DNA from: Viola odorata
Lineage: Eukaryota; Streptophyta; Magnoliopsida; Malpighiales; Violaceae
Direction: 5' to 3'
Assembly: GCA_963691705.1 (NCBI GenBank)
Contig: OY829545.1
Location: forward strand, 38,737,475-38,801,474
DNA length: 64,000 nucleotides
How positions within the stretch are numbered: the first letter of the stretch is position 1; the number at the start of each line of letters is the position of its first letter. A program made the position numbers and the translations under genes. The notes beneath the pieces were generated by a model, which searched no databases, was not told the DNA's origin, and was given only the letters and a program-made list of their open reading frames with translations. Positions 11,860 to 31,199 of the stretch are shown piece by piece.

Positions 11860-12440
11860 GCTAATGCCTTTTTTGATAAGATAACAAATGTAGCAACCTT
11901 GTTGAAAGAATGGCAAGATGGGAGTGATTATGAGTTAAGCATTTTGGCTGATAGCATGAAGGAGAAGCTTGACAAATATTGGGGAGATGTCACAAAATAT
12001 AATTCTTTATTCTACATTTATTCCATTTTAGATCCAAGAAATATGTTTGTGTATGTTCAGTTCTCTTTAAATGATTTGCATGGAAGTGAAAGTGGTGGGA
12101 GAATGGGGAAGAAAGTGAGGGAGGAGATTGGTAAATTATACCATTCCTATATTGAAATGTACAACCCAAGGAAGGAAGGAGATACAATAGAAGGTGACAA
12201 ATCAAGAGAAAGAAGAAGAAGTTTAAATGTTAAGGCTGCACAGTTAATGGATGCTAGAAAGAATAAATTTAAAAATTTTAAATTTGATTGTGGTGCTGCT
12301 GCAGAGGGTGGTTCAGAGTTAGAGTTATATCTACAAGAGCCTGCAGTGACTGATGACAATGAGTTTATTTTACTAGATTGGTGGAAAAAACATTCTCCAC
12401 GATTCCCAATTCTATCCAATACGGCAAGAGATGTCTTGGC
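11860..12440 (+). pseudogene. hAT transposase fragment, C-terminal half
   Basis: An open frame reads DKITNVATLLKEWQDGSDYE, then DKYWGDVTKYNSLFYIYSIL, LDPRNMF, and the dimerisation segment WWKKHSPRFPILSNTARDVL. This is the C-terminal region of plant hAT (Ac-like, RICESLEEPER-type) transposases. The catalytic N-terminal half is absent on the left, where Tat-1 abuts, and the frame leaves the hAT alignment right after ARDVLAV, before the usual PVSTVASES block. It is a dead fragment. hAT genes often carry a BED zinc finger at the N-terminus, not present here. Confidence 0.85.
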
Positions 12441-12489
12441 AGTTCTAAGTACTCCTTTTGTGTGCCCTTGTACTTGTTGCATGTCAACG

Positions 12490-13080
12490 TTTTGTGTGAC
12501 CTCTCGGTCTAGATCCTAACCAAGAGCCTCTATGGACTAAGACTTATTTCACAACGAGCCGGAGCACATCAATAAGTCGTAGTGTAATGGAGCATTTTAA
12601 GAGGATCTAGCCCGTTAGTTTATCACATAAACAACTAGGAAAACAAACATGACAATGATGGGAAGTCATGAAGAACGCAGTGGAAAGGAAACAACGAAAG
12701 ACCCAAGAGAAAGGAAGGATGTTACTGGAGTAGTTACGGATGGAAAGATGGAAGGAATGAGCGCGATGATGATACTTGGAACATACTTGAACAAGATAAA
12801 GGCCACACAATTGAACAATAAACAAAGCTCTTAAATTTCACACACAAACTCGGTCACTTGAACAACAAATAATCGAATACCAATGATAGGAACAATTACA
12901 CAATAAAAGTGATAAGTTCCTCGGTGATTAATGGAGGAGTAGTCTCAACTCAATACATTAAGAACCAAAGATGAGTCTAGGGTGAAGTTGGGAGGAGTAT
13001 TCTCACTTTATACTAGGGATACAAAAAAATGGCACTTGAGACGGTTTTGCCCTTGTAAGGACGCTCCCTTCTTATGGCTG
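12490..13080. repeat. Two A-type gypsy LTR fragments in inverted orientation
   Basis: 12490-12571 is the reverse complement of the end of the A-type LTR seen at 50485 and 52938 (GAGCCGGAGC). From 12571 the same LTR end appears in the other orientation (AATAAGTCGTAGTGTAATGG). GACTTATT (12541-12548) and AATAAGTC (12571-12578) are exact complements. The rest, to about 13080, is a degraded version of the LTR body, with the GGAGGAGTATTCTCA phrase shared with 53320-53400. Confidence 0.55.
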
Positions 13081-14386: not shown

Positions 14387-15007
14387 ATGGTTGAATTTTT
14401 TGATTCCATGAACATGGTCGTCCGAGATTCCATTGGAATCAGGGAAGAGGCCGAGGATTCGGTGATTAAGGATTGCGGCGAGGAAATAGAGGCAATCATG
14501 GAGGATTTTGGCGAGGAGATAGAGCCAATCGTGGAGGATACCTATAATAATGATGGGAATGTGGTTTCGAATGTTGTGATTGAGGATTCTGGCGAGAAGA
14601 TGGAGGCAATCGTGGTGGATACCTATGATAATAATAGGGATATGGTTTCGCATTGCGTGATTGAGCATTTTGTCGAGAAGATGGAGGCAATCGTGGAGGA
14701 TACCTACGATAATGATAGGAATATGGTTTTCGATGCCGTGATTGAGGATTACGATAGGGAGATGGAGTCAATCATGGAAGACACGAGTGTCAAGTCCATG
14801 GTTTCTGAATCACAACCCAAAGTGATTTATGATTTTGACTTGAATGAACCCTCTACTGAAGAGAAACTATTGGCAGCCAAGGATAACGGAGGAAGAGATT
14901 TTGACCTCAATAAGCTCCCAATTGCAGGTATGTATGAGTCGGAGGACCCAAGTTGGGAACCAGCATTTATTGAAATGTTGCGTCTCCTACTTCTATCTTT
15001 CTACTGA
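14387..15007 (+). CDS. Acidic repeat protein with DLN (EAR-like) motifs
   Basis: A 206-residue acidic frame from the ATG at 14387. Residues about 42-134 are three tandem 27-residue units plus a partial fourth, with the core GEKMEAIVVDTYDNNRDMV and only conservative changes. The C-terminal part has YDFDLNEPS and DFDLNKLPI; the second fits DLNxxP, the EAR repression motif that recruits TOPLESS-type corepressors. This points to a possible nuclear regulator, inferred from the motif alone. A CAGGTATGT donor-like site at about 14926-14934 falls just after the second DLN motif, so the last 26 codons may be intron. The gene matches no transposon protein I know and sits beside the Tat-2 insertion. Confidence 0.55.
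   Translation: MVEFFDSMNMVVRDSIGIREEAEDSVIKDCGEEIEAIMEDFGEEIEPIVEDTYNNDGNVVSNVVIEDSGEKMEAIVVDTYDNNRDMVSHCVIEHFVEKMEAIVEDTYDNDRNMVFDAVIEDYDREMESIMEDTSVKSMVSESQPKVIYDFDLNEPSTEEKLLAAKDNGGRDFDLNKLPIAGMYESEDPSWEPAFIEMLRLLLLSFY
14510..14788 (+). repeat. 81-bp coding tandem repeat
   Basis: Units at 14510-14590, 14591-14671, 14672-14752 and a partial to 14788, in frame within the acidic gene. The exact multiple of three and conservation of hydrophobic spacing suggest expansion under coding constraint. Confidence 0.8.
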
Positions 15008-15222: not shown

Positions 15223-15227
15223 ATGAT
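15223..15227 (+). repeat. Target-site duplication ATGAT, left
   Basis: ATGAT here matches ATGAT at 31200-31204, directly outside the two Tat-2 LTRs. The empty site would have read GAGCAATGATCTTTG. Confidence 0.95.
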
Positions 15228-15598
15228 TGATAACTATCGATACCACAGAAGCGGCATCTCCACTACCCCGCCGGGTGACCCGGCCAGCATACTGTACCCG
15301 TCGTGGGAGACGAGGCCTTGTTCATGCCGCCCTTAGCTTGGCGACCGACCCTGGGATGGTCGACATCAGCGGGGGGCTCTCATGCGGCATCCCATCCCAG
15401 GTCATCCATGACGTCATCCCGCATGACGTCATCCCATATGACGTCGCTGAAGGCCACTCCAACGGCATATATCATCCCAGCGACACTTGCCAGGGACTAT
15501 TCCCACCAGCGACAAGCAGGTGATGAAGACCCCAGTACAGTGTTCCCGACCAGCCTAGATCAAGCCGATCCTGATCAGTATCCCCCGGACTCTTATCA
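15228..15598 (+). repeat. 5' LTR of Tat-2, promoter region deleted
   Basis: 371 bases against 533 for the 3' LTR. Relative to the 3' copy it lacks about 145 bases after ACTATTCCCACC (15494-15505), which removes the TATA box, the start site region and the CGGAGTG motif, plus about 16 bases of U3. The three TGACGTC motifs remain at 15409, 15424 and 15439. Confidence 0.92.
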
Positions 15599-15600
15599 AA

Positions 15601-15619
15601 TGGTGCTTTCATTGAGAGC
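15601..15619 (+). other. Primer-binding site of Tat-2
   Basis: TGGTGCTTTCATTGAGAGC starts two bases after the LTR. It begins TGG, complementary to a tRNA CCA end. I do not assign the tRNA. Confidence 0.65.
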
Positions 15620-15684
15620 TTTGGTTAATTAAGTGAGTTTTTCCTTAGTGACCAAGCTCTGTTCTTTCTGAGAGTCTAAGGATC

Positions 15685-17157
15685 ATGGCTTCAGATTCAG
15701 AATCTACACCCCCTCATACTCGTGGGGTTCACGCGCGTAGGGAACTTTTTTCCACGTCTTCGTCAAGTACATACGTCACATCACGTGAAACATCTTCTGC
15801 GCAGACAGACTTTCTTTTCGGGCTGACAGCTGGCACCTCGTTTTCTCAAACGGGCACCCCGTTTTCCCAAATGGGTAGCCCGTTTTCACAAATGGGTTCC
15901 CTTATTTCCTCAATGGGTGCCCCGTTTTCTCACACGGGTGGATCCAGTCACTCCGTCCCTCCGCTTGTAAGTTCTAGGGTGGATGGCCCAACTACTCCCT
16001 CGGTAAGGTCGATGTTAGCTCTTCGTGCCCACTTGGACTATTTGATTGGGATAGCCGCAGGCTCCACTTCTAGTGCAGTAACATCAGGTGTGTGTCCTCG
16101 AGTTATTTTCACCCCGTCTATTATCGCTGATCGACCAGTATCGCCTCGTCTCCAGGAGAGCATCCCTCTGACCTCACCAACGATAAGTATGCCATTCAGC
16201 TTTACGCAATTGGCAGACGGACAAGAGGAGCACTACAACCGCGGATACCGTGGATTCCTGTCTCCCAAGTGGAGCGACCGGTAGATGAATACCGAGAGCG
16301 CTGGGATGGCAGGAGAGAGGGAGCCGGTAGGGAGGTATCTATGGAGCGGAGTGAGAGATCAGGCAGTAGGAGGCGACGATCCCGTTCGCCTAGGAGTCGT
16401 AGCAGGTCTCCTAGGCAGCAACGCACCCCGGAGCCTCGAGGGCACAGACGACACCGCTGGTCATCCTTTCACCCATCGTGTGAGGGCACAGGCGACACAT
16501 GTCAAGCTCCCCACGGAATCATACGATGGCACCAAAGACCCCATCTCGCATCTTAATAAGGTGAAGGATTTCGTCCAGTTTCAAACGCATAATGACGCAG
16601 CGTTGTGTCAGATATTCGTTATGACATTATCAGGGGTAGCCCGCCTCTGGTTTGAAGGACTTCCTACTCGATGAATTGATAATTTTCGGCAGCTAGAGGC
16701 TAAGTTTAAGAGCCGCTTCAGCACAGCTATCCCCATTCGAAAGTCCGCAGCAGCCTTGTTTGATATATGTAGAAAACCAGAGGAGTCTTTGAATAGTTAT
16801 CTTGGTCGTTTTGATATGGAAATATCGTTAACTCCTGGTATTACTATTGATTTCGCCATAGAGGCTCTGAAGCGGAACTGTGGATATGGGAAGCTGAGGG
16901 ATACACTGATGGTGGATCCCCCAATAACTTTAGACGCGTTAAGGTTGAAGGCTCACAATTATGCGAGAATGGAAGAAGAGGAATACAGAAACAGGATACG
17001 GGATACGCCCCAGAACGCCCCTCCTGCTCCCACGGCTCAAGGTAGTGTGACCCACGACACCCGTCCGGGTGACGAGTCACCCAGCGGAAAGATTACATTC
17101 CCAAGGCGTCGAGTCGCCAGAAGGGTAGTTACTCTAGAGGAAGGGGCGGCAGTATGA
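15685..17157 (+). pseudogene. gag: gag of Tat-2
   Basis: A single reading frame from MASDSESTPPHTR, interrupted only by TAG at 16282-16284 and TGA at 16672-16674. The N-terminal region contains a seven-residue repeat (15841-15945). The capsid-type core (Retrotrans_gag family) spans 16500-17010: ESYDGTKDPISHLNKVKDF, QIFVMTLSGVARLWFEGLP, then after the stop FKSRFSTAIPIRKSAAALF and ESLNSYLGRF. An Arg-rich segment precedes the end. It overlaps the next frame by four bases (ATGA at 17154), an arrangement suited to reinitiation or frameshifting. The stops look like simple base changes. Confidence 0.88.
15841..15945 (+). repeat. 21-bp coding repeat in gag, five copies
   Basis: Units of 21 bases encode FSQTGTP, FSQMGSP, FSQMGSL, ISSMGAP and FSHTGGS. 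In frame, within the gag N-terminus. Confidence 0.85.
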
Positions 17158-18479
17158 ATGTTCAGCGACAGGGGGACCCCCCTAAGGGTCGAACGTATGA
17201 TCCCGACCTTCTTCCCCTTACACTCCGACGAGCGGAGATCTTAGCCATCATTCAGCAGCGGAACCTGCCGATCCGTTATCCAGCCCCTGTGAAGCCAGGG
17301 GTGGTCATGGGAGGAAGGGAAAATGCTTTTTGTAAATTCCATAAGGTTAAGGGGCATTCTACAGAGGCATGCAGGGTATTGAAGTTAGCAATAAAGCGCC
17401 TGTTGGAAGAAGGCTATCTTGGAGAATTCGCCACTCGTATGAGAGAAGAAACCAGGAGCGACCCTCCCCACGGGGCGTTGGGTGACCATCAATTGCCTCC
17501 TCCCCTCGGGAACACCGGAACTTCTGAGGCAAAGGGGAAAGAAGCGCTAATGATGTATGACGTGGACATCCCTATTATTAACATTATCGCTGGGGGGGCG
17601 TCGTTCCTGGATGAGATTACCCCAGCAACACCCGTGACAGGAGAGAAGCGAAAACGGGATGGCCAGCCGGTAAAAAAGGGAGCGATTGACGCGCTTGACA
17701 GGATGGTAATATCTTTCTCCGAAGAGGATGAGAAGGGCCTCGTCTTCCCTTACAATGACGCGCTAGTAGTCACACCGGTTGTTAGGAGCCATGGCGTGCG
17801 AAGGACCCTCATTGATAATGGCAGTGCGGTAAACTTATTTTCGTTGGAAGCATATAATCTCCTGAAACGCCCTGCCACGGAACTGGCGCCTTGCAAGAAA
17901 CCAATTATTGGAGTGGACGGCATTCCTATACCTGTGATTGGAGTCACAACGCTGCCTGTGCATTTTAGAGAAGATGCGTCGAGACGATCAGAAGAGTTGA
18001 TGTTCTTGGTCGTGGATCTTATTCTACCGTATAATGCCATTCTAGGACGGCCATTCCTCAATCGTTTTGGGGTGGCGGTATCTCAGAAACACCTCAGAAT
18101 GAAATACCCCTCCTGGGAAGGGGTAGTATCGATCAAGGGGGATCAAAAGTTAGCCGTCGAGTGTTATTCACTCATGATTCAAAAAAGTTGTGATCAATAT
18201 GTGTGTACGGCAGCGGATCCCTATGAGCAAAGGGACGAAAGGCGAACCCAACCAGTGGATGCGATGGTGTCCATCCCTGTCCAAGGCAATGGTAAGGCGA
18301 GCTTCCAGGCTAGTGACAAGTTGACCCTTGAGGAGAGGGCACAATTGGCCCGACTGTTGAACAAGTGCAAAGGAGAGTTCGCGTGGAAACCGACGGACAT
18401 GCCTGGCGTATCTAGGGAAGTGGCTGAGCATCGACTCAATGTTGACCCGGGCGCCACGCCAGTTCAACAGAAGCGGTGA
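17154..18479 (+). CDS. pro: Zinc-knuckle and aspartic protease part of Tat-2 pol
   Basis: An open frame of 441 codons. Near residue 60 is FCKFHKVKGHSTEACRVLK, a zinc-knuckle-like sequence typical of Tat gag-pol. The retropepsin centre is TLIDNGSAVNLFS (about residue 220), where DNG replaces the usual D[ST]G. The flap/C-terminal signature NAILGRPFLNRFGVAVS follows around residue 290. The frame ends with the start of reverse transcriptase (PGATPVQQKR) at a TGA (18477-18479) that lies in the same frame as the rest of pol and probably arose from CGA. The DNG protease triad is common in plant Tat elements as I recall. Confidence 0.88.
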   Translation: MNVQRQGDPPKGRTYDPDLLPLTLRRAEILAIIQQRNLPIRYPAPVKPGVVMGGRENAFCKFHKVKGHSTEACRVLKLAIKRLLEEGYLGEFATRMREETRSDPPHGALGDHQLPPPLGNTGTSEAKGKEALMMYDVDIPIINIIAGGASFLDEITPATPVTGEKRKRDGQPVKKGAIDALDRMVISFSEEDEKGLVFPYNDALVVTPVVRSHGVRRTLIDNGSAVNLFSLEAYNLLKRPATELAPCKKPIIGVDGIPIPVIGVTTLPVHFREDASRRSEELMFLVVDLILPYNAILGRPFLNRFGVAVSQKHLRMKYPSWEGVVSIKGDQKLAVECYSLMIQKSCDQYVCTAADPYEQRDERRTQPVDAMVSIPVQGNGKASFQASDKLTLEERAQLARLLNKCKGEFAWKPTDMPGVSREVAEHRLNVDPGATPVQQKR

Positions 18480-20230
18480 GCATTCTCCGTGGAAAAGTCG
18501 GCGGTGATTGATAAGGAGGTAGTACAGCTGATGGACGCAGGATTCATCCGAGAAGTTCAATACCCCACTTGGTTGGCCAACCCCGTCTTAGTCCATAAGC
18601 CCAATAGAGACTGGCGCATGTGTATTGATTTCACTAACTTGAATGATGCTTGCCCTAAGGACTGTTATCCGCTCCCTCGGATTGATCAGTTGGTCGATCA
18701 AGCGGCAGGGTACGCATTTTTGAGTTCCCTGGACGCCAATTCTGGATATCATCAGATTCCTATGGCCAAGGAAGATGAGGAAAAAATGGCATTTATAACT
18801 CCGAAGGCCACCTACTGCTACACAGCAATGTTGTTTGGTTTAAAGAATGCAGGGGCGACCTTCCAGCGTATGGCCAACAAAGTGTTTGAAAAGCAAATCG
18901 GGAGAAATGTAGAAGCGTACGTAGACGATGTACTGGTCAAGAGCAGAAGTTTCAGTGACCATCTGGCCGATTTGCAGGAAGTGTTTGATGCATTAAGGAA
19001 GTACCAGATAAAGTAGAACCCCCGCAAGTGCGCGTTCGCATTCCAAACAGGAAAATTCTTGGGGTATGTGGTAAGCCAAAAGGGCATCCAGCCGAACCCG
19101 TCAAAGATTAAGGCTATCCATGATATGGTATCGCCACGAATCCTCCAGGAGGTTCAGAGATTGACAGAACGCGTCATTGCTCTGGGGCGATTCATCTCTA
19201 AGCAGGGCGAGAAATGCTTGCCGTTCTTTAAAGTTATACGTAAGAAAGCTTCTTTCGGATGGACGCAAGAGTGTGAAGAGGCGTTCGTGGGCTTGAAAAC
19301 ATACTTGTCGTCCGACTTGGTACTAACACGACCGGATCCGAGCGACACTCTATTTTTGTACCTCGGCGTCGCGGATGAAGTGGTCAGTGCCGTTTTGGTC
19401 CGAGAGGACAATCACGTCCACCGTCCCGTGTTCTTTGTTAGCCATGTGTTAAAAGATACCGAGGTGCGATATACCCACATTGAAAAGGTGGCATTCGCCC
19501 TGCTACAGTCCACACGGAAGATGGACAGGTACTTCCAGGCCCATCCAGTTATCGTGCTCACGGATCAGCCGTTGAGAAGAATTCTTAGGAAACCAGAATC
19601 CTCGGGGAGGATGTTGATTTGGTCAATTTAGCTAGAACAATACGGATTACAGTACAAAGCTCGGGCATCTGTAAAAGCTCAGGTTCTGGCAGATTTTATC
19701 TCCGAGTGTACATTTACTGGGGACAAGGCGGCGGAGCCGCTCGAAAAGAAAGAAAGTGATGCGAAGGTCCCATTCTCAGAGGCCCCCGCGGATACATGGG
19801 TCGTCTATGTAGACGGCGCCAAAAATCAGGAGCTGGCGGGAGCTGGCATATATATGATCGGGCCACACAATGTGCAGGTGTGGTACGCCATTAGAATCCT
19901 GAAGCCATTGTCCAACAACGCAGCAGAGTATGAAGCGTTATTGGCGGGGCTTAGAATAGGAAGAAGCCTTTTCGCTAAAACTGAAAGTGACTTGGTAGCA
20001 GGAGCCCCACGGTTGAGAATACGAGGGGACTCCAAATTGATAATCGATCAAGTCTTGGGACATTCCCAAGCTAGAGAACCGATCATGGCGCAATACCTCT
20101 CAAAAGTGAAAAAGGAATTGGCAGAAATGGAACAAAGCGGCGTGTGTGTTACTTTCGAACACATCCCGCGGGAGGACAATACAGAGGCAGATATTCTTGC
20201 CAAGGCGGCAGCTAACCAGGAGGTTGTCCT
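18480..20230 (+). pseudogene. pol: Reverse transcriptase and dual RNase H of Tat-2
   Basis: Continues the protease frame. Reverse transcriptase: DAGFIREVQYPTWLANPVLV, WRMCIDFTNLNDACPKD, SLDANSGYHQIPM, LFGLKNAGATFQRM and the catalytic AYVDDVLVKS (18916-18945). Stops are TAG 19014-19016 and TAG 19629-19631, both in frame. The gypsy RNase H follows (FVSHVLKDTEVRYTHIEK, VLTDQPLRRIL). A second RNase H of the Tat type starts WVVYVDGAKNQELAGAG (19798), with NNAAEYEALLAGL and LRIRGDSKLII, giving the D-E-D residues, and DNTEADILAK at the end. The doubled RNase H is a lineage marker for Tat. Confidence 0.92.
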
Positions 20231-20379
20231 ACCAGAAGGCGTGTACTATGAGGAAAGGTCATTACCGTCTTTCATGGAGGAACAGTTGTCGCTATGTGTG
20301 GAGGAGATTGAAAAGGACTGGAGAGTCCCTGTGATAAATTTTTTGAAACACGACGAGCTACCCAGCAACAGTACAGAGA

Positions 20380-21482
20380 AGAAAAAAGTGCTGAAGCAAG
20401 CGGCAAGGTGCACTTATTATGATGGGGAGTTAATTCGGAGATGTTTCTCACACCCGGCCTCAAAATGTATAACGGAACAAGAAGGCCTCCATACCCTGCG
20501 AGAGATTCATGAAGGCATCTGCGACATGCACGTGTCGGGTGGTACCATGGCCGCGCAAGTGTTCCGGTCAGGATTCTATTGGCCCACTATTCGCAGAGAT
20601 TGTAACAACTTTCTGCAGTCATGCCATAAATGTCAAGAATTTGCCAAAATCCCTCAACGACCTGCCACTGAAATATCTCAGATTGTGGCACCTTGTCCTT
20701 TTGCCAAGTGGGGAATCGATATTTTAGGCCTTTTTCCTAAGGCCAGGTCTCAACTGAAATTCGTAATTGTGGCGGTGGACTACTTTACCAAATGGGCAGA
20801 AGCGGTAGCGGTAGCCAGTATTATGACGGAAAAGGTGTGGCACTTCTTTAAGCACCAAGTGATCATGCGTTTCGGGGTGCCTCGTGTGCTAGTTAGCGAC
20901 AACGGGGCACAGTTTACCAGCTGCTTCTTCAAAGAGCAATGCGAAGAATTCTAGATCGAACAGAGGTTTTCCTCTGTGGCGCATCCTCAGACTAATGGCC
21001 AGGCGGAGGTAACCCTATGTAATGTGGGCTTACCGCATGACCGTGAAAACTAGTACGGGGAAACACCCTTTGTGATGGCCTTTGGTACTGAAGCGGTAAC
21101 GCCTATCGAAATTGGGACCCTAAGCTTGAGAGTGGAATATTTCAAGGAGGAATTAAATGAAGAGAGGTTACGAGCTAACCTTGACATGTTGCCTGAGGCG
21201 CGCAAGGAAGCTCTCTTGAAAATAATGCACTACAAAAGAAGAATGGCGCGGTATCACAACAGACATGTTAGGGAGTGGCTGCTCAAAGCGGGAGACCTCG
21301 TGCTTAGGGACAAACGAGCGGTGGGCCAACGAATGTGGAATCTCAGCTCAAACTAGGAAGGCCCGTACCGCGTCACTCGTGTTATCGGAAAGGGGGCGTA
21401 TCACCTCGAAATGGTTGACGGTACTCCCTTACCTAACTCTTGGAATATTGCTAGATTAAAATTGTATCATGCTAGAATTTGA
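20380..21482 (+). pseudogene. int: Integrase of Tat-2, broken
   Basis: The zinc-binding HHCC region is HEGICDMHVSGGTM to SCHKCQEFA (20500-20640). The core starts KWGIDILGLFPKA (first Asp), then VAVDYFTKWAEAV and VLVSDNGAQF (second Asp). TAG at 20953-20955 interrupts; the third acidic residue sits in NGQAEV (about 20998-21015). Straight after it about 90 bases are missing relative to what the family needs, joining to WAYRMTVKTSTG in another frame, and a second shift restores the frame before FVMAFGTEAVTPIEI (21072). A further TAG lies at 21354. The C-terminal GPYRVTRVIGKGAYHL matches plant gypsy integrase tails. Confidence 0.9.
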
Positions 21483-22190
21483 CATGCCGTTGGGCATGGT
21501 TTTGAAATTGAAAATGTTGACATGCCATTGAGCATGGTCTTTGAAATTGAAAAATCGACATGCCGTTGGGCATGGTCTTTGAAATTATGATTAAAATTTC
21601 GACATGCCGGTGGGCATGGTCTTTGAAATTATGAAATTTTGACATGCCGTTGGGCATGGTTTTGAAATTATGAAATTTCGACATGCCGGTGGGCATGGTC
21701 TTTGAAATTATGAAATTTTGACATGCCGTTGGACATGGTCTTTGAAATTATGAAATTTTGACATGTCGGTGGGCATGGACTTTGAAATTATGAAATTTCG
21801 ACATGCCGGTGGGCATGTTCTTTGAAATTATGAAATTTTGACATGCCGTTGGGCATGGTCTTTGAAATTATGAAATTTTGACATGCCGTTGGGCATGGTT
21901 TTGAAATTATGAAATTTGTGAAAAATCGACATGCCGTTGGGCATGGTCTGGAAAGTATGAAATTTTGACATGCCGGTGGGCATGGTCTTTGAAATTGAAA
22001 AATCGACATGCCGTTGGGCATGGTCTTTGAAATTGAAATTGAAAAATTTGACATGCCGTGAGCATGGTCTTGAAATTATGGAATTTTTACATGCCGTTGA
22101 GCATGGTCTTTGAAATTGAAATTTCGACATGCCGGTGGGCATGGTCTTTTGAAATTGAAATTGAAATTTCGACATGCCGGTGGGCTTGGT
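21481..22190 (+). repeat. About 39-bp hairpin tandem repeat, roughly 18 copies
   Basis: Starts immediately at the pol stop. Each unit opens GACATGCC(G/A)(T/G)TGGGCATGG, followed by TCTTTGAAATTATGAAATTT with length variants. CATGCC and GGCATG are exact complements around a four-base loop (GTTG or GGTG), so almost every unit can form a 6-bp stem. The loop alternates between two forms while the stem is constant, with rare broken copies (about 21730, 22050, 22180). Matches the Retand hallmark of a tandem repeat after pol. Confidence 0.92.
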
Positions 22191-22263
22191 CTAACAATTG
22201 CTGTGGAAATATTCTTGTTCCTTGTTGGTTGTCTATGTAATGTGCAGATAACCAGGAAAGGAG

Positions 22264-22752
22264 GATGTCGGGGGTGAAAAGTCCTAGCCTTGGGGGCAGA
22301 ATGGGCTAATGCAGACGGGTCGTCAAGACGAGGCACGCCCTGGCGATCCTAATATATGGTGCTGGAAGTGAAAAATTCTGGCCTTGGGAGGCCGGCCCTG
22401 ATCAGGCGGCTCGCCAAGAGGAGACACGCTCCAGCACTGTCGGGAGTGAAAAGTCCTATCCTGGGAGACCCAGAGAGGGCACGCCCCGACTCCCCAGGGG
22501 GTGCAAAGTCCTATCCTTGTGACAGCCCGCGCTCACAAAGGCGGATGATCATTAAGTGAGGCACGACCCTAGGGAAGATAAAAACTCCACCTCGCAAGTG
22601 AAAATCCTATCCTTACGATGGTAGCGCTAACATAGGCACCTCGTTAAGAGAGGGCACGTTCCGATGTGTGAGGGCAACGCTGAGGAAGTGAAAAGTCCTA
22701 TCCTCGTGATGGTCAACCCTGATCAGGCGGCGCACTGAGAGAGGGCACTTCC
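22264..22752 (+). repeat. Array of six structured repeat units
   Basis: Units at about 22266-22347, 22359-22437, 22439-22490, 22493-22574, 22590-22673 and 22684-22752. Shared order: variable 5' arm, one purine, GTGAAAAGTCCTATC, a second variable helix, AGAGAGGGCAC, a dinucleotide (usually GC), variable 3' arm. Outer arms pair within each unit although their sequences differ: GTCGGG/CCTGGC, GTGCTGGA/TCCAGCAC, GTCGGG/CCCGAC, CCCAGGG/CCCTaGGG, CCTCGCA/TGTGAGG, GGAA/TTCC. The inner helices also pair, for example CTGGG/CCCAG, TTGTGA/TCACAA and CTCGTG/CACtGAG. No coding frame fits. Described as a repeat; a structured RNA is my inference. Confidence 0.7.
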
Positions 22753-22787
22753 CGGCCGATTAAAGAAATGAGAAAGGTCACGGTACC

Positions 22788-22831
22788 CCAGCTAGTAACC
22801 GGAAGGGACAAACCCGGTGAAGTTTGGCTGG
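22788..22831 (+). other. Two nested stems, Tat-2 copy
   Basis: CCAGC (22788-22792) pairs with GCTGG (22827-22831); inside, ACCGG (22798-22802) pairs with CCGGT (22814-22818). Homologous to 2-40 in Tat-1. Confidence 0.55.
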
Positions 22832-22837
22832 AAGAGT

Positions 22838-23100
22838 ACGTGACACGAGCGACATCGGGGGAGATCGCGCCAAGTGAGTTGGGAAATGTGCGGCCACACC
22901 CCAAGGTAATTAATATATTGTAGATGTCACTACTAGTGAAAATGATAAGTGAAAATGTGCAGAAAATTCGGCACAAGCGATATCTCGGAAGGATCGCCCT
23001 AAGAAAGTGAGGAGCGTGTGCGGCAATGGCCCACGGTAACTAAGGTTTCTCGGGAATATGATGCTACTAACAAAAGTTATAAGTAAATGTGCAGAAAATC
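22838..23100 (+). repeat. About 130-bp direct repeat, two copies
   Basis: The stretch ACGAGCGACATC...AAGGTAATTAA...AAATGTGCAGAAAAT (22842-22967) recurs in diverged form as ACAAGCGATATC...CGGTAACTAAGG...AAATGTGCAGAAAAT (22973-23098). Tat-1 bases 50-175 match the second copy best. Noncoding spacer. Confidence 0.65.
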
Positions 23101-23467
23101 TAGTAAAATGTCAAAGCGATGGAACACTTGGAAAATAATGACGCCGCGGAGAAGCAGAGCGTCCAAAGGGGAGATCCAGTCATCTCAGCCGTGGTACGAG
23201 ATAATGATGAGGAGCGGATCTACCCCATTGCGCAGAGAGAAATGGAAGTTGAAAGGCGCAGGCCACATCAGTTTAACGGTGGCAACCAGTTTTGGAAAGA
23301 AGCGCTAACGAAAGTAAAGTGAGAAGGATCACCGATAAAGTAAAATGATAGCAAATTTTGCAAGCTATTTGTACAGGAGGGGGTGCTTGTGTAAACAAAA
23401 AGCCCCGAAAAAGCATAAAAAGGACAAAGAAGTCGGGTCGCATGATGGACCAAAAGAGAAGTGACAT

Positions 23468-25801
23468 TTATGGCCCGAGCATGCCGTTGTCCCCCTCGTC
23501 AGGTCGTGGCCTCTTCGCTTGACGGTAGCCCTCTTCTGTGAGGAACCCAGACTTTTGCTTGAAGAGGCGGATGATGGCGTCAGCGTCGAAGAAATGGCGG
23601 CCGTCACGCTCAATGAAGCAGTCGGCCATGAGGCTTGCAGTTTGTTCCATAAACCATTTGCACTTGTCCGTTGTTTCCTCCGTAAGAGCGGCATACTTAC
23701 TTTGCTCCACTTGAAGGGCGGTATCCCCCGCGGCCCGGAGTCCTTTGGCCTCTTCCAACTCTTTCCTCGCAACTCCCAAACTGTTTTCCACACATTGTCG
23801 CTCCTCAACACTCTTCCGCGGCTCCTCTTGAGTTTTATGAAGGTCCCTTTGATACTTGCTAATTTCTTCCAAGAGCTAGTGGTTAGTGTTGCGCCATTCC
23901 TGGGAGGAAGATTGGAGAGAGCTCATTCATCTCGTCACATTCCTAGACCAGTAATGGAAACCCTGAAAGCTAGAGAACAGATGAGTCCTTATCTGCTGCA
24001 GTTGCTCGCCCTCGGCAACAGAGAGGAAGTCCTGCTCTTCCTCCTCAACTGACAACAGATGTCCTGCCAGTAAGGCGGATGTCGCTAGGGAGTTGTTGCC
24101 TCTTAACGCTGGGAACCCGCGCTAGCGAATGTTGCTTAAATCAACTTGATGGGTGGCGGCTCCGCTGGAGAGTATAGTTCTTAGGTCAGCCACCATGCGC
24201 GGAGTGTCCACCGGGGGAAGAGAGGGAAAGACTGTCTGAACAGCAGTAGGAACGAAGAAGACATCAAGAGGGGACGGAGGGGAACGATTAGATGGCCCAG
24301 CGTCAATGTTGAAAACCCCAGTTGGTACGGAAGAAAAGTGCTCCTCTGTAAGGTCCTCCAGAAAGTCCAAGGGATTGCCTAGAGGAGGAGATGATGCGGC
24401 CAAAGAAGAATGAAGAGTCGCAGAGGTAGCCCCGTTCCCTGCTAGGCCAGAGCCTTGGTTATCTGTCAAGGGACCGGTGTTGGCGATGCCGTTCTGCCTA
24501 TCCTGACCAGCGGCAAGGTCGTTCGCTGAAGCTGAGTCCTCATCAAGACGCGGTCGCTTGGGGCCAAGAATACCCGACAAATCCATGCCACCACGCGAAG
24601 GAGTGGCAGAAGAGGCAGCAGCCGCGGTATCCTACGACCAAAAGAAACAGGGGAATTAAGAAATGGACACAAAACATATAGACGGAGGGAATCTCGTGAA
24701 AAAACCACCTGAACAGGAGGACGGGTAGGCGCAATAACGCGAAGGCGGAGAGTTCTTCTCTTCTTTCTTGCAACGGGAGGACGAGAAGATGACGCTTGGG
24801 CAGGAACAACGCTAGGGGAGGAAACTGGCTCAACGGCTGGTGTGGCAGTAGCCTCCGCTCGGGGAAGAGAAGAAGACTCAGGCGCAAAAGTGGACGCGTG
24901 CGTGGTGTCAGTCACGGCACCAGCTGAGGTGGCAGAAAGAGCCCTTTTTTCTCTCTTCTGCGGAGCTCTTCTCTCTCTTTTCTTGATGCAATCAGGTTTC
25001 CACCCGGTGGGAGGATCTGTAGAAGCAAGAAATGAATGTTAGAGTTAGTATTGGCATGGAACGGTGAACAAAGGGACGGTGCTCACTTTGAATGCAATTC
25101 TGGACGTCGCCCTGGCACGCGAGTTCGCGAGTGCGAACACCGGGAATCCCCGACAGGTTGAGCAGCTTGTCCAGCCAGCCTTGGTCAACTGGTCCTAACT
25201 CTAGCCTGCCACCCCAGGCAGAGTCTCTGATGACGAGATTAAACCCGCTCCGCCACAAAGGCTGGGGCAGATTGATGATGAAGAATCCTTTCTTCCAAGC
25301 ATCAATAGAAGATTCAAGGAATAACAGCTTCCAGGTAAAGGGGTTTAGAGCTTCAACATCATAGCGAGGCGATATCGCTATGATGCCGTTGTTATGGTGG
25401 TACAATTGAAAAATGGAGTGAAGTAACAACAAGGAAGGAGATTCATTCCCTATATATCTACAGAGGGCTATAAAACCATAAATGCCGCAGTAGGCGTTTG
25501 GACTTAATTGGGCAGCATTCAGATCAAATTCAGAGAATAACTCGGCAATTAAGGGATCTAGAGGCAACTGAAAACCATAATGAAATATTTTGGCATAAAG
25601 AACCCTACTGTTACCAGGTAATTCGCTATTAAGGCGAAGGGACTTTGGGGCAACTTCAGTAGAATACCCCTCCAGCTGGTCGAGGGTAGCATTATAGCTC
25701 CGCAGGCGCCGTCGAAGGACGGTGGTGGAAGCAATGGTAGAGGCAGTAGCGTCAATATCCCCCTCCCCAGCAGAGCGGGGATAGCGGCGATTATGAGCCA
25801 T
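23468..25801 (-). pseudogene. Antisense gene aORF2 of Tat-2, Transposase_28-like, three exons
   Basis: Exons 25801-25087, 25016-24709 and 24631-24122, introns 25017-25086 and 24632-24708 with GT/AG ends. The three exons join in frame for 510 codons without a break. Domain order: Transposase_28-like region (YAKIFHYGFQLPLDPLIAEL, NAAQLSPNAYCGIYGF, AWKKGFFIINLPQPLWRSGF), basic linker, Ser/Pro-rich region, MDLSGILGPKRPR block. TAG at 24122-24124 is probably a mutation: the same frame continues through VEEEEQDFLSVAEGEQ and a Glu/Lys-rich coiled coil to 23468, with more stops between 23930 and 23870. The coiled-coil layout parallels aORF1. Antisense genes of this type are reported in Tat elements, but their role is unknown. 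Confidence 0.78.
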
Positions 25802-25971
25802 GTGCAAGGTTAAAAGAAGGATAGAGAGGAAGGTACCTGTGGTGAGAAGAAGATCGGAGCACCCGGGCGGCGGCGGATCATAGGAAGAAGAAGGGGGATT
25901 GTCTTTTCTGTTCTTCCTTTCCGTCTTTGAAAGAGAAAGGTAACAAGAGATAAAGAGAAAGCACGTGGGGG

Positions 25972-25980
25972 TTTTTTATA
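25972..25980 (-). promoter_or_regulatory. TATA box for aORF2 of Tat-2
   Basis: GGTTATAAAAAAC on the minus strand, 171 bases before the ATG at 25801, matching GGTTATAAAAC at the same place in Tat-1. Confidence 0.55.
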
Positions 25981-26471
25981 ACCCTAAGGACTAAAGGGGA
26001 CGACGGGTTAAGCGATTGTAGTGTGTGACGTGTCAAGGGCAAAGAGACGCGGGAAGCGGGTGCAATCTCTGAGGAGCGAAAAGACATGCTCAGCCCGCCA
26101 GTCTTTTAGCGTTCCCCTTTGATGACACGTGGGCTTAAAGCATCATGGCTATCTCCCCCGTATCAAATAAAAGAAGTCAGAGCATTAAATGCTCTGGAAA
26201 GGGCGCAGTCAAACCCGGCGCAAAGGAGCGGCAAGATGTAATGACACAGCATGCAAGAGGTAAAGTGCGAAGAAAAGATAGTCAAGCGACATGTGATAAA
26301 GGGCGACATCGTTAAGAAGCACGCATTATTTGGTCAAGATCTGTTAATTATTACAAGCAAGGAGGCGACGACAAAATCCAAATGGGAAAAATAGCACAAC
26401 AAGGGAGTAAGTAAAGAAGCGACATCCACAATCAAGCGGCATCAGATAGGCCCTTCCCAGGCACTGATCTG

Positions 26472-28485
26472 CTACTCCTCTTCGGAGGAGAGGAAACCCT
26501 CTTGGCTCTCATCAATCCCTTTCATCCTGGCGGAGGCATACTTGGCGACCTCAGCGGGGTCAGCGGACCTGCCGCGGTGCTGATCTGTCACCCCGGCGAT
26601 AAAGGCTTGTTCGGTTTTCTTCTTCCACCAGGTCACCTTCTTGAAAGCTTTTGATAGGTCCGCATCGTGGGAGGCCACCTCCTCAAGAAGGAATGGATTT
26701 TTCTTCTTCTCAGCCACCAGCTCAGCCTCTAAAGCTTCAACCTGGGCTCTTCCTTTAGATCTTTCCCGAGAAAGGTCAGCATGGCACTCGCGCAGTTCGG
26801 CCTGAGCGCGTTTGTGGAGTCGCGACAGCTCCTCTACCTTGGCCAGGACACCAGAGTTTTGAGATTGGGCACCACGAGCCTTGATGAAGTAATGAAGTTG
26901 TCGAAAGGCAGCAAGGCAGTTGTTCATGACGCGCATATACTGAACTTCGGGAGGAAGTTGCAGTAGCTTACTCTCCTCCTCGGAGGCGCGAAACATTTCA
27001 CAGGCCAAGATAGTTGTGGGCTGATCTTGTGATAAGGGGTCTGATATACCTAGGGCACGGAACCCGTCAGTCCCAAATTTTGACAGATTTAGCCGGTGAG
27101 AGGGGGCCCCTTGAGGCCCGTCACGGGAAAGATCAGCAACAAAGCAAGGGGTGGAGATACCGCCCAAACCCCCAATGTCTCGAATTGAAGTAAGGAACAA
27201 TGGACAAAGGGACTTCGGGGGAGAGTGAGAAGAACCAGGTCCGCTTGGGACTGAGGGACACACGTTGGGAATACAGGGGCCAATGGGCGAATGTGGATGC
27301 TCCATGACAGGAGCAGAATCCGCAGCGGATGGTGGCATCGTTGCGGCAGGTGAGGTCTTGTTGGGGGAAGCCAACCCCAGAGTCGAGGAAGCGGCACCCA
27401 GTGAAGCGGCACCCTTCATAGTGGTGTCGGGAGAAGCGGCAGTCTGGGAAGCGACGGTAGCTGCAGCGTCGCTTGGAGGAGATTGAGCAGCTATCTTGGC
27501 CACTTGAGCCTCGCTTGCTTCCCTTAGCTTCCTTCGCTAAGCTGAGGAAGCGGGGCGGAGGCTCAGTTCCGTGTCCATGTCCTCCATATCCCCGATTCCG
27601 TAGGAGAAAATATTTATCTCAGTCACTAGCAAACCAGACCCGGACCTCTTCTTCTGGCTGGGTAACCAGTTTTCCTCGAAGGGGGAAGTGCGGAAGGAGG
27701 AACCGCTTTCCCTGGAGAGAATCTCGCCTAAAGCTCTTTTCTTTATGGGCATACGGTGATCAGTTCGAGCCCCAGCGGAAGTAGAGGGAGCAGTCGTTGA
27801 AGGGGCGACAACCTTGCGAGGAGCGTCACCTTCGGAGAGCGGTTGAGCGACGGTATCCCCTGCGAAAAGTTATGTTAGTAAGCAAGGGCTAAGCAAAGCA
27901 GCGGCGATGCTCAAAAGCTCACCTATGGTACACTCAGTTAAAGGCCTGTACAAGGCAAAGTTTCAGATCTGGAAAGAGGCCTCCATCTCCAGTAAGGCGT
28001 TGGCCTGATCCAACTCTTCCCTAGACAAAGGCGCTGGCCTCGCCTAATGAACCACCTCCAGGTTGAAATTAGGACGCCACAGGCGAGAGGGTAATTCGAC
28101 AACAAAGAAACCGCTCTTCCAGTTTTCGACGTTCCCCTCGAATCCTCGAAATTTCTGCCAAAAAGGCCTCACTAGAGCATCATCCCATCTTGGAATAATA
28201 TTAATGAAGCCGTCGCGAAAAACCAGAGTCAAGAACTTGTGGAATAAAGCGACAGAGGGAGCAAGAATATCTTTTAATTCGCAGGCACAAAGGAAGGCGT
28301 AGATGCAGCTCCATGAGGGAGGGGTAATCTGCGCAGGGTTAAGCCCGTGATCGCTCAACACACGCTCTAGCGTGTCATGAACTGGGAGGCACCGTAAAGA
28401 TGCTAGGGGTGTTTTCAAGCTCGGGATATCGAGAAATTGGCCTAGGGGTAGCTAAAGAGCTAGATTGAGATCTCGTGCGAGGCAT
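26472..28485 (-). pseudogene. Antisense gene aORF1 of Tat-2, Transposase_28-like with coiled coil
   Basis: Exon 1 28485-27923, intron 27861-27922 (62 bases, GTGAGC...CGCAG), exon 2 27860-26472. Exon 1 begins MPRTRSQSSSLATP but has lost about 120 bases after ENTPSIFT, shifting the frame into LPVHDTLERVLSDHGLNPAQ; the domain then continues with ITPPSWSCIYAFLCACELKD and WKSGFFVVELPSRLWRPNF. Exon 2 has one stop (27537-27539) in the SAxRRKLRE block, then is open for 343 codons through DPLSQDQPTTILACEMF and a coiled coil ending SQEGFLSSEEE. Exon 2 aligns end to end with Tat-1 4981-6369. Confidence 0.78.
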
Positions 28486-28539
28486 GATAGATAAAGCAGT
28501 AAAGGAAAATCAAAAGCAAGATCAAGCAGAATACCTTGA

Positions 28540-29008
28540 AAGAGAGAAGGCTGAAATTAATGGGCGAGTCGCCTGGATGCGAACGAGAGAATTTCCTCTG
28601 AGCGAGCGAAAAATGAAGAGAGTTCTGAAGTATAAAAGGAGCAAAAAGGTACGAAGAAGGAGCGTTTTTCCTTTTAAAAGAGATAGTGGAAAATTCAGCC
28701 AGAAGGGCAACCTATCACAGCAAGACACGTACGGGACGAGTGTGACACGTGGAAAGACCCTGACAGAAACTTAAAGTCAATCGCTCGCCTCGAATGTCGT
28801 AAAAGAAAGACTCGTTAATTACAAAAAAACCCACAAAGGCGGTCGTATGAAGCGGCAATTGGCTGTCCAGCGGTAGTTATCCTATGGGGCGGCAATTATA
28901 GCAAAAGCAAAAGCGAAAAGAAAAAGACAAGCGACACTTCGTTTCATTTCATTCTGTTTTATTCATTGAAAGAGAAAGCCAGCGGCATCTACAATAAGTG
29001 CGACATCA
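28540..29008. other. Spacer between antisense genes
   Basis: Noncoding. A TTTTAAAAGG TATA-like stretch on the minus strand near 28670-28680 may serve aORF1. The stretch 28870-28925 matches Tat-1 7510-7580, marking where the third Transposase_28 gene of Tat-1 would lie. Confidence 0.4.
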
Positions 29009-29497
29009 TCAGTCTTCGTCCGCCCAGTGTATGTCATAAACGTAATCATAATCTTCCGGAGACGATGGCAACCCGCTGTTATAGAAAGGAAATGGCTCGC
29101 CAATCTCGAAAGTTCTTTTACCAAGCCCACTCGCGGAACCTGTCGTAGGGGCAGTTTCTTCCTTTGAAGCGGCATGGGAGTTTTCCTCCAGGGTCGAGGT
29201 AACCAATCCTGTGGCGGCATCTTGCGTGGAAGTCCTGTCCTTGGGAAAAGGGCAAGGGACGGATGGTGACGCTTCATTCTTTTGCCGCAGCGAAAGGTAG
29301 TGAGGTTCAAAGCCGGCAAAGAAGGATTCGAAAGATTGTTTCTTTATTTTCTTCAATCTCTTGTGACCCCGGCACTTCACGGAATGTCTGGGAGGCCTTC
29401 AGGGGGGTGTGAGTGGAGGATTGTCGGAGTCAGGAGAAGTCGGAGGGGTCGGAGGAGAATCGCGGGTGGCAGCATACAAAAAATGAGAGTCAGCCAT
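29009..29497 (-). pseudogene. Antisense small acidic protein, Tat-2 copy
   Basis: Starts MADSHFLYAATRDSPPTPPT at 29497. A TGA at 29399-29401 (likely from CGA) breaks the frame, after which the same frame continues with a Lys-rich patch (GHKRLKKIKKQSF), a Ser/Pro/Thr linker and an acidic aromatic tail (EDYDYVYDIHWADED). Same layout as the intact Tat-1 protein at 9425-9850. No known domain. Confidence 0.65.
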
Positions 29498-29573
29498 GGA
29501 AATATCAGTAAGAGTGAGAAGCAAGAAGGAAAAAAGTGAACAAAGAAGGAAAGAAAGAACCCCATTATATAGC

Positions 29574-29581
29574 CGAGGTGA
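29574..29581 (-). promoter_or_regulatory. TATA box for the antisense acidic-protein gene
   Basis: GCTATATAATGG on the minus strand, 77 bases before the ATG at 29497. The Tat-1 counterpart region has only a weak TATTTAT. Confidence 0.5.
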
Positions 29582-30050
29582 GGTGAGGAGGCGTGCCTGC
29601 CTTTTCGCGTATTATCGAGGACAGTTAATGCTATCAGAGATAACGTCTGTTGGCGGAGAAAGATCTGACTCCGCAACTGTCAAAAGTCTGCACCAGCCAG
29701 AAGGCACCGAAATCGTTGCCCAATCCGTTAACACCAAAAGCGGCGCAAAATATATTCAGAACGGATGCGATATGGGAAAATCATCATTATGAGCTAGGTA
29801 GGCAAATAAAGTTACGGGATCCCAAGGGACACCAAGCTCACAATAAGTGGGAACAAAAATTGTTTTCTAAGAAAGATGATATGAGAAAGAAGAAAAACAT
29901 TGACAGTGCGGAAGTGAACGAGGGAAAGCATGTTTATTTATTTAAAGGGCTCAGCGGCCCGAGATTACAAAAAGGCCTTACGGCCCGGAGTTACAAAAGG
30001 TGGCCCCAGAGGAGCACAGAGAGACATGCCAAGAGGATCCCCATCGCTGG

Positions 30051-30437
30051 TCAGGCATTCGATCTAGCGTCATCATCTTCCCATTCCAGGAAAGGAATTT
30101 CCCTCAGGTCATCCGCAAGAGCCGTCAGTTCAGAAGAATAGGCCCTCATGCTCTTCAGGCAGCATCCCAGCAAATCCTTCCTATGCTGTAGCGTTGACAT
30201 CAGCAGCTGAATCTGAGAAACAGCCACTGACAGCTTCACCGCTTTCTCCACGGGACTGAAATCCTCAAGGGTAACAGCAGCTTGTCTAGCTTGCAGGGGA
30301 GTCAGCATCCCCTGGAGCTCCAGCATATCCTCCGAGGTCTTAATGCTCAGCGAACCCAGGAAATCAGTATCTGCCTGAGTTAGGTTCCTCAGGGCATGGG
30401 TTTTGGAGAGCAGGAAGTTTTTGGTGACTTCGTCCAT
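30051..30437 (-). CDS. Antisense small helical protein, Tat-2 copy
   Basis: An intact 128-residue frame starting MDEVTKNFLLSKTHALRNLT and ending EWEDDDARSNA. Predicted all-helical, no transmembrane segment. Conserved with Tat-1 9988-10446 over the whole length, including RKDLLGCCLKSMR. It is the gene nearest the 3' LTR and the only antisense gene unbroken in both elements. It may act with the coiled-coil proteins, but nothing in the sequence proves this. Confidence 0.7.
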   Translation of the reverse strand: MDEVTKNFLLSKTHALRNLTQADTDFLGSLSIKTSEDMLELQGMLTPLQARQAAVTLEDFSPVEKAVKLSVAVSQIQLLMSTLQHRKDLLGCCLKSMRAYSSELTALADDLREIPFLEWEDDDARSNA

Positions 30438-30518
30438 AAAGAGAAGAGAGATGAAGAAATTCGAAGAGAGAGGTGAAAAAGCTGTGAGAGTTATGAGGCA
30501 AGTGCAAAATGAAAGGCC

Positions 30519-30526
30519 TATTTATA
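30519..30526 (-). promoter_or_regulatory. TATA box for the antisense helical-protein gene, Tat-2
   Basis: TCTATAAATAGG on the minus strand, 82 bases before the ATG at 30437, a strong plant-like TATA box at the position conserved in Tat-1 (10509-10514). Confidence 0.65.
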
Positions 30527-30666
30527 GACTTCAGAAAAAGGCATTTTGAAGACATACCTTTATCGATCGTTGAACCCACATTGGGGGAGAAACCTCTGAA
30601 GGGGCAGGACCGGAGACGCTGTGATAGCCCTTGGTAAACACTAGGGCTAGTTTTTGTTTGGGCATA

Positions 30667-31199
30667 TGATAACTATCGATACCACAGAAGCGGCATCTCC
30701 ACTACCCCGCCGGGTGACCCGGCCAGCATACTGTATCCGTCGCGGGAGACGAGGCCTTGTTCATGCCGCCCTTAGCCTGGCGACCGACCCTGGGATGCTC
30801 GACATCAGCGGGGGGGCTCTCATGCGGCATCCGCACGGCGGCATCCCATCCCAGGTCATCCATGACGTCATCCCGCATGACGTCATCCCATATGACGTCG
30901 CTGAAGGCCACTCCAGTGGCATATATCACCCCAGCGACACTTGCTAGGGACTATTCCCACCCCTTGTCGGTACACTCCTTCCTTTGCCTATAAATACCCC
31001 CACCTTTTCAGACAAGAGGGTAAGCCTAAGATAGCGTATTGAACCCCTGCCATTTTTGCTATTGACACTGACTTTGGCATCGGAGTGTTTACGCCGGTGA
31101 CCCCCTCCGGCGCTTTGCAGGTGACGAAGACCCCAGTACAGTGTTCCCGACTAGGCCAGATCAAGCCGATCCTGCTCAGTATCCCCCGGACTCTTATCA
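30667..31199 (+). repeat. 3' LTR of Tat-2
   Basis: 533 bases, TGATAACTATCG...ACTCTTATCA. Includes TGACGTCA at 30863 and 30878 and TGACGTCG at 30893, each 15 bases apart, and CCTATAAATACC (TATA at 30989-30996). Apart from the two deletions in the 5' copy, the LTRs differ at only about a dozen positions by eye over some 370 bases. Confidence 0.95.
30863..30900 (+). promoter_or_regulatory. Triple TGACGTCA motif in U3
   Basis: Three TGACGTC(A/G) palindromes spaced 15 bases, the consensus for bZIP factors of the TGA/CRE type. The motif is also kept in the diverged Tat-1 LTR and in the minus-strand LTR at 43795-43802. Confidence 0.6.

Follow-up and report, generated by a model that had tools for sequence, protein, structure and literature searches.

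The window, i.e., the whole 64,000-nucleotide stretch of Viola odorata DNA analysed here, carries an LTR retrotransposon bounded by target-site duplications (Table 1). On its plus strand the Pfam matches of the pol region follow in the order RVT_1, RT_RNaseH, RVT_3, H2C2, and rve, with RT_RNaseH in the ORF at 19059-19631 and RVT_3, then H2C2 and rve, in the ORF at 19854-20954; a Pfam search of the gag/pro frame (17154-18476) gave no match. The Retand lineage of Tat is described as having an aRH domain between RNase H and integrase (PMC6317226, in the part available) and an antisense Transposase_28 ORF between pol and the 3' LTR (PMC11963269). Both features are present, the aRH domain (RVT_3) sitting between RNase H and integrase and the Transposase_28 ORF lying on the minus strand, as is the long pol-3'LTR region of such elements, which extends for ~9.2 kb from the end of integrase homology (~21480) to 30667 and is longer than the 2.9-6.6 kb range given in PMC11963269. 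Judged by its domain order and antisense ORF, the host element fits the Retand lineage of Tat (PMC6317226, as far as its available text goes; PMC11963269). Among the best 120 integrase relatives in a protein collection, the named ones were plant proteins with 34 to 42% identity, and 0 of 17 pattern matches in a viral contig collection were confirmed; for Transposase_28, 2 homologues were found in the search.

Table 1. Annotated features of the retrotransposon and of the array, in window coordinates.
Feature	Position	Strand	Remarks
LTR retrotransposon, Tat/Retand type	15228-31199	+	LTRs start with TG and finish with CA; target-site duplication at both ends
5' LTR	15228-15598	+	5-bp target-site duplication ATGAT at 15223-15227
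Primer-binding site (PBS) TGGTGCTTTCATTGAGAGC	15601-15619	+	Assigned as PBS by position
Putative 5' splice donor GTGAGT, after the PBS and before the gag ATG	15633-15638	+	Sequence kept in 3 fetched elements
pol region, split open frames in the window copy: gag/pro, RT, RNase H, aRH, integrase	17154-20954	+	Pfam
40-bp tandem repeat, hairpin-forming	21478-22192	+	Upstream of 3' splice signal; hairpins in fold
Predicted branch point CTAAC, U-rich tract, 3' splice site GTGCAG/ATAA	22191-22247	+	Just upstream of array
Unit 1	22267-22344	+	P1 GTCGGG/CCTGGC; R1 78.1 bits; each P1 pair kept in 30-32 of 32 copies
Unit 2	22359-22437	+	P1 GTGCTGGA/TCCAGCAC; apical loop CUGAUCA
Unit 3, short, without apical extension	22439-22490	+	P1 GTCGGG/CCCGAC; P4 CTGGG/CCCAG
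Unit 4	22493-22574	+	P1 CCCAGGG/CCCTAGGG
Unit 5	22588-22668	+	P1 CACCTCG/CGATGTG; CGAGGTG in nearly all other copies
Unit 6	22679-22756	+	P1 GCTG-A-GGAA/TTCC-CGGC; loop CUGAUCA
Predicted mini-intron 1 (GTAATTAA..CTACTAG..GTGCAG)	22906-22962	+	Sequence reading
Predicted mini-intron 2 (GTAACTAAG..CTACTAAC..GTGCAG)	23036-23094	+	Downstream of mini-intron 1
Antisense ORF, Transposase_28 (PF04195)	24992-25807	-	Pfam E 5.1e-7
3' LTR	30667-31199	+	Target-site duplication ATGAT directly after

The 5' LTR is ~160 nt shorter than the 3' LTR, and the segment that it lacks includes a TATA-like box near 30989 of the 3' LTR. Outside the element, a hAT transposase fragment was found on the plus strand at 11899-12519 (PF14372, PF05699), together with short tandem repeats at 14498-14784 and 33684-33915 (periods of 81 and 24 bp, respectively).

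Tandem arrays between pol and the 3' LTR have been reported as frequent next to pol in Retand elements, family-specific, and of unknown function (Vicient 2025, PMC11963269), and the array described below shares with them the lineage, the region, and the antisense Transposase_28 (TRP28) ORF. In that study arrays were scored by Tandem Repeats Finder, which did not report the present array when run on the window, and the available main text holds nothing on RNA structure or splice signals and does not describe the module (PMC11963269).

The six-unit array and its pairing

Shortly after the 40-bp tandem repeat, which itself follows the integrase, lies an array of six units (22267-22756). The original prediction had proposed such an array at this place, and six units sharing one architecture are indeed there, although the end it gave, 22752, falls 4 nt short of the last arm. 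From 5' to 3', each unit comprises a variable helix P1; a purine opposite a dinucleotide (GC, GA, GT, or TT); GUG/CAC; an AAAAGU bulge; CCU/AGG(G); an AUC/AG loop; the inner helix P4 (CUU/AAG, a bulged U, and four more pairs); and, at the tip, a 7-nt apical loop with a C-G closing pair. The AAAAGU bulge is one nt shorter in many next-to-last units, and some MFE folds of GC-type units pair GUG with CGC, not CAC, so that the P2/P3 register given here is provisional. The blocks previously held to be constant in all six units proved less uniform, GTGAAAAGTCCTATC being exact in units 3 and 6 only and AGAGAGGGCAC in units 3, 5, and 6; neither are they wholly single-stranded, as had been claimed, since parts of them pair mutually (GUG/CAC, CCU/AGG). 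As to coding potential, all six frames of the array contain stops (4-12 each).

The central proposal, that the arms differ between units yet pair within each unit, was borne out. There are 720 possible assignments of 5' to 3' outer arms, and the pairing of the true assignment is reached by only 3, itself among them; for 8-nt inner arms it is reached by the true assignment alone (1/720); with 10-nt inner arms the result is weaker, 22/720 assignments being as good as the true one. The outer arms of units 5 and 6, which had not been listed before, are paired as well (Table 1). Moreover, RNAalifold returned the same structure, unaided, from a plain MAFFT alignment of the six window units, in which 89.2% of the cells are paired, 10 are double changes, and the covariation score is reached by 0/500 shuffles. 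The number of further pair types was unremarkable, being reached by 59/500 shuffles for the six units and by 313/500 in another count. Folded alone, the whole array stretch of 507 nt was only slightly better than its shuffles (z -1.5). The evidence for the predicted array structure is, in this sense, comparative and not a matter of single-sequence folding.

Individual pairs were further compared among 32 copies of the same family (family A), skipping L032, L033, L035, L036, and L037, whose aligned stretch was under 450 nt. Unit 5 has its C.U mismatch in the window only, the pair being C-G in 31/32 copies. In unit 1, the pair 22270/22341, G.U in the window, is G-C in 29 copies and G.U in 2, and the G.U at 22268/22343 is present in 23 copies, with U-A in 9. 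The outer arm predicted for unit 4 (CCCAGGG/CCCTaGGG) stands, except that its middle A-T is paired in 1/32 copies only, the window's own; the inner arms proposed for this unit (TTGTGA/TCACAA) represent a local alternative, and relatives support CUU-GUGA/UCAU-U-AAG with a bulged U.

The block right after the array (22757-22830) is conserved between families at roughly 70-85% identity, and may hold another covarying hairpin (ACCGG..CCGGT in the window, ACCAG..CTGGT elsewhere).

Related arrays and covariation across families

Searching the V. odorata genome at the DNA level yielded 1443 first-look candidates; 40 copies were scored, at 94-100% identity and with the window among them, and these constitute family A. 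Overall, 67 array loci were cut out; two arrays had been cut twice (as L062 and L063, and as L027 and L053), leaving 65 distinct loci, all from one genome, with 4-7 detected units each (368 listed units; six units in 46 loci); 40/65 belong to family A or a near cluster. Integrase-like sequence lies upstream of the array in 60/65 loci (the integrase-context and loop-class counts and the first splice-signal counts with their controls were made on 66 loci, with L063 dropped and L053 included), and among the five loci without such a match four have long 40-bp repeats and one, L017, other sequence.

A pattern that excluded the window's own units matched 7 places, against 0 for a reversed control, namely four family A variants and three copies of a second family, family B (L032, L035, L036). 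Family B shows ~73-76% pol identity to family A, has, in these copies, no 40-bp repeat upstream of the array, and carries five units, whose P1 sequences differ from those of family A yet pair again. The hairpin stems of the family A 40-bp repeat read ATGCC/GGCAT, and this repeat was not seen in the family B loci read. A second window-excluding pattern matched 283 places (0 for the reversed control). Model R1 derives from the six window units themselves, so that its scores on them are by construction; in 30 loci cut from the 283 places, the first 30, all on contig C1, it gave 174 matches, 6 of which were counted twice because L062 and L063 are one array. Clustering at the chosen threshold yielded seven sequence groups, of which one resembles A and one B. 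The motif patterns had 0 matches in a viral contig collection and 0 in a genome contig collection.

For the tests of covariation, 81 non-redundant units, a few of them incomplete, were aligned without structure. They derive from 374 units that had a neighbour within 260 nt, the others having been excluded; of the 382 units listed, at least one (in L039) is a false match. Since related sequences can mislead pair counts, columns were simulated independently along the unit tree. The whole structure is paired in 1355/1505 cells (90.0%), against a mean of 78.6% and a maximum of 86.2% in 1000 such simulations. P1 is 83.8% paired (null mean 66.7%), matched in 0/1000 simulations, and P4 is 89.2% paired (null mean 76.8%), matched in 1/1000, its double-change count being reached in 13/1000. 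Furthermore, kept double changes amounted to 19 branch events, against a simulated mean of 4.8 and a maximum of 12 (200 simulations). P2 and P3 drew no support from the tree-aware test, 283 and 75 of 1000 simulations pairing as well, because they are too conserved for it. R-scape had been suggested as a check; in our analogue, a structure-free all-pairs test of the 81 units, no pair attained E < 0.05, a P1 pair ranking first (E about 0.19) and a P4 pair second (E about 1.05), whereas P1, P4, and the whole pass the tree-aware structure test. The support is, consequently, tree-aware and for helices; for single pairs it is not at the R-scape level.

In alignment A6, which holds 37 units from 7 loci taken by choice, leaving out the second units of L046 and L039 (short), 87.3% of 797 cells pair, falling to 38-48% when partner columns are slid by 1-3; 13/22 pairs show two-sided change, with 63 such cells against 25.6 in shuffles (0/500 reach). 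Of all helices, P5 is the one least well kept, at 71% paired. In alignment A5, model-fitted and comprising 150/174 matches, 88.8% of cells are paired and 245 are double changes (0/500 shuffles), but as many pairs with two-sided change arise in 94/500 shuffles. From alignments made without structure (6, 11, and 37 units), RNAalifold returned the helices P1, P2, and P3 together with the base of P4; MFE folds contain the P2 register plus at least 4 P1 pairs in only 39/81 units.

Tandem arrays without an assigned function are common in Retand elements (PMC11963269), and the units might be decayed tandem repeats that are complementary by chance. Across families, however, pairing exceeds what the cross-unit, slid, and tree-aware controls give, which makes this explanation scarcely credible. 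Related families outside the window support the proposal that the Tat element contains a structured RNA whose stems covary, and the outcome that was to count against it, pairing lost while sequence is kept, is the opposite of what we saw: sequence changes and pairing mostly stays. Comparison of sequences thus establishes a predicted module, its repeated use, its place after the integrase, and the keeping of its pairing under sequence change, and the fold is very probably real and has been under selection.

Complementary arms could also arise at the DNA level, by template switching, palindrome correction, or recombination, without selection on RNA. Hairpin-bearing 40-bp repeats adjoin the array, and the excess of G.U over A.C, 111 against 57 cells in the 81 units, is not significant after thinning (29 against 19 in 22 units, with a bootstrap interval from -1); in family A, minority states comprise 22 G.U and 22 A.C. 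Against such an origin, conservation of the core is strong outside the variable helices, the bulges stay at their positions (purine/dinucleotide, U in P4), and units tend to retain position-specific identity, so we regard it as improbable. As for the strand, MFE folding gave the sense strand a modest advantage (mean z -1.94 vs -1.50), and a sense-strand RNA is suggested by the sense-only splice signals described below and by the G.U excess, the latter not significant when thinned.

No credible match to the module was obtained from Rfam. There were 0 matches in the window at the gathering score; under relaxed thresholds only ceN70 (26.1 bits vs 65, minus strand, E 0.0029) and bxd_4 (E 2.6) appeared near the array, and, in 6 related loci, one weak miRNA match outside the array (E 0.27). 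ARAGORN found 0 tRNAs or tmRNAs in the window. A new class of self-cleaving or otherwise catalytic RNA, arranged in tandem like multimeric ribozyme transcripts, would accord with a compact conserved core with bulges inside free helices and with the tandem repetition. Nevertheless, no Rfam ribozyme matched, relaxed thresholds included, and six cuts in its own genomic RNA would seem harmful to the element; we hold this very improbable.

We found no description of such a module in the open-licence literature searched, and the word fragment 'transpos' does not occur in the accessible portion of a study on new structured RNAs in plants (PMC12218528). Two known systems invite comparison. ENE elements clamp poly(A) by a U-rich internal loop. 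An ENE triple helix aids the mobilisation of Evade, a plant LTR retrotransposon (PMC12501189, from the text at hand); as far as that text allows, both are structured RNAs in plant LTR retrotransposons, but the module has no U-rich loop (an ENE-type U tract was absent, by eye, from the conserved loops of 37 aligned units), occurs in several tandem copies, and lies just after pol. Sireviruses carry repeated palindromic motifs with a constant CGG-CCG signature, likened to transcriptional activators (PMC2829016, in the sections available). On that partial account, both are repeated, dyad-symmetric, and placed in non-coding parts of plant LTR elements, whereas the arms of the module vary and covary around a constant RNA-like core.

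Splice-like signals and possible roles of the array

Splice-like signals flank the array (Table 1), the upstream acceptor resembling those of plants. In counts that are not independent, 40/65 loci being A-like, YGCAG lies 19-36 nt before the first unit in 56/65 loci (20% of control windows) and CTAAC within 130 nt upstream in 57/65 (21% of control windows). Likewise, a mini-intron pattern (GTAA..branch-like..TGCAG) occurs within 420 nt after the last unit in 44/65 loci, against 0/65 on the reverse strand and 69/670 in a random-window control that overlaps true sites; 42 of the 44 matches are 58-62 nt long, and they start 135-290 nt after the last unit. Between PBS and gag, the window and 3 fetched elements share a donor-like TTAAGTGAG[T/C], a PBS having been found in 3/9 stretches and not in 6. 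In family B about 95 nt (by eye) separate the integrase end from the acceptor, and a donor further upstream is therefore suspected. The resemblance of UAUCCUU to U12-type 5' splice sites was set aside as probably due to chance.

The main rivals to the protein-binding reading set out below are a leader role in spliced RNA and kissing-loop dimerisation. In the former, the array would lie in the 5' UTR of a spliced subgenomic RNA, joined from the leader GTGAGT to the post-pol GTGCAG, and control its translation or stability. The conserved acceptor context and the donor-like sequence speak for it, and the available part of PMC2829016 states env-type spliced RNA with predicted acceptor sites for BAGY2 and Athila. 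However, the only sense frames downstream of the array in 10 loci are stop-to-stop, reach 145 aa at most, and share no pattern in where they lie or how long they are; the donor was read in only 4 elements. We consider such a leader role rather unlikely.

The apical loops bear on the second rival. Their class tends to follow unit position, with C/UUGAUCA in the last unit, UAAYAUA/ACA in the next-to-last, and UCACAUA/UCACAAA or UCGUGGA in the third-last (11, 11, and 23 of 66 loci unclassified, respectively), so the units have largely kept their identity across families and were not homogenised. The palindromic tip attributed earlier to units 2 and 6 was confirmed, both loops being CUGAUCA. In retroviruses, the palindromic apical loop of the dimer initiation hairpin drives RNA dimerisation, and CUGAUCA, which holds the palindrome UGAUCA, might similarly let the first and last units pair mutually or with a second genomic RNA, serving dimerisation and co-packaging. 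CUGAUCA or UUGAUCA is present in 40/65 last units and in 38/60 units fifth from the end.

The module is absent from another young Retand-type family of this genome (L077, L078, L079; best 5 bits in 3 copies) and is therefore not universal. In favour of kissing loops, 3/3 copies of this array-less family keep one hairpin, GTCCTG-CTG-ATCAGACGG, that differs from the apical hairpin of the array only by 3 inserted nt (L077 about 1138-1160, with a like place in L078 and L079). Conversely, other positions in the arrays have mostly non-palindromic loops (UAAYACA, UCACAUA, UCGUGGA) or loops unrecognised by the loop patterns, 8/65 last units have CUGAUCC, unit 3 lacks the apical extension, and P5 is the helix least kept. 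On balance, dimerisation by kissing loops appears unlikely, if worth serious consideration. The same family has a similar acceptor context after the integrase and hairpin repeats of its own, with the loop UGUCUU[A/C]GUAAAC and the stems CUAUCUG/CAGAUAG and UACCUG/CAGGUA (5 in L077 at 1184-1350, 3 each in L078 and L079); such modules after the integrase may thus be a recurrent habit of Retand elements, on the basis of three copies of one family.

Retroviral RREs, CTEs, and packaging or dimerisation signals are multi-site structured RNAs on genomic RNA with repeated binding sites, and those of RRE/CTE type promote the export of unspliced RNA via a bound protein. The reading that we tentatively prefer, at somewhat less than even chances, is that the array acts as a sense-strand, cis-acting structured RNA in which about 5-7 copies of the module form a multi-site protein platform deciding the fate of the RNA. 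From its place between conserved acceptor and mini-intron signals, we infer that the array would be transcribed and would fold in the genomic RNA, the spliced RNA, or both. In each module, two helices that may take any sequence provided that they pair enclose a conserved, asymmetric core (GUG/CAC, AAAAGU bulge, CCU/AGG, AUC/AG loop), and the repeated core could be the landing site for Gag, the antisense-encoded Transposase_28 protein, or a host factor, these binders being our guess. Given the place, the repetition, and the free helices around a fixed core, the bound protein may decide whether the RNA stays unspliced, is exported, packaged, or spliced, as with retroviral RRE, CTE, and packaging signals. 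The likeness is in layout, the module differing in forming several separate tandem units, and no sequence relation is claimed.

A more specific version, distinctly unlikely as a whole, would be a Rev/RRE-like switch, in which the leader donor and the post-pol acceptor make a spliced RNA, the array is the response element, and the Transposase_28 protein or Gag binds the core and keeps genomic RNA unspliced, exported, and packaged; families would then have exchanged hairpin modules at this one site, the families described here carrying the module array and another the UGUCUU[A/C]GUAAAC hairpins.

Some plant genomes are rich in Retand elements (PMC11963269 cites 15,904 copies for maize and 4,800 for Silene latifolia), whose long pol-3'LTR region has no explained function. 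In this context, a covarying, multi-copy RNA module between splice-like signals provides a testable case for retrovirus-like RNA regulation. Its covariance model offers a marker to trace the module across plants, and the module may explain the persistence of arrays next to pol.
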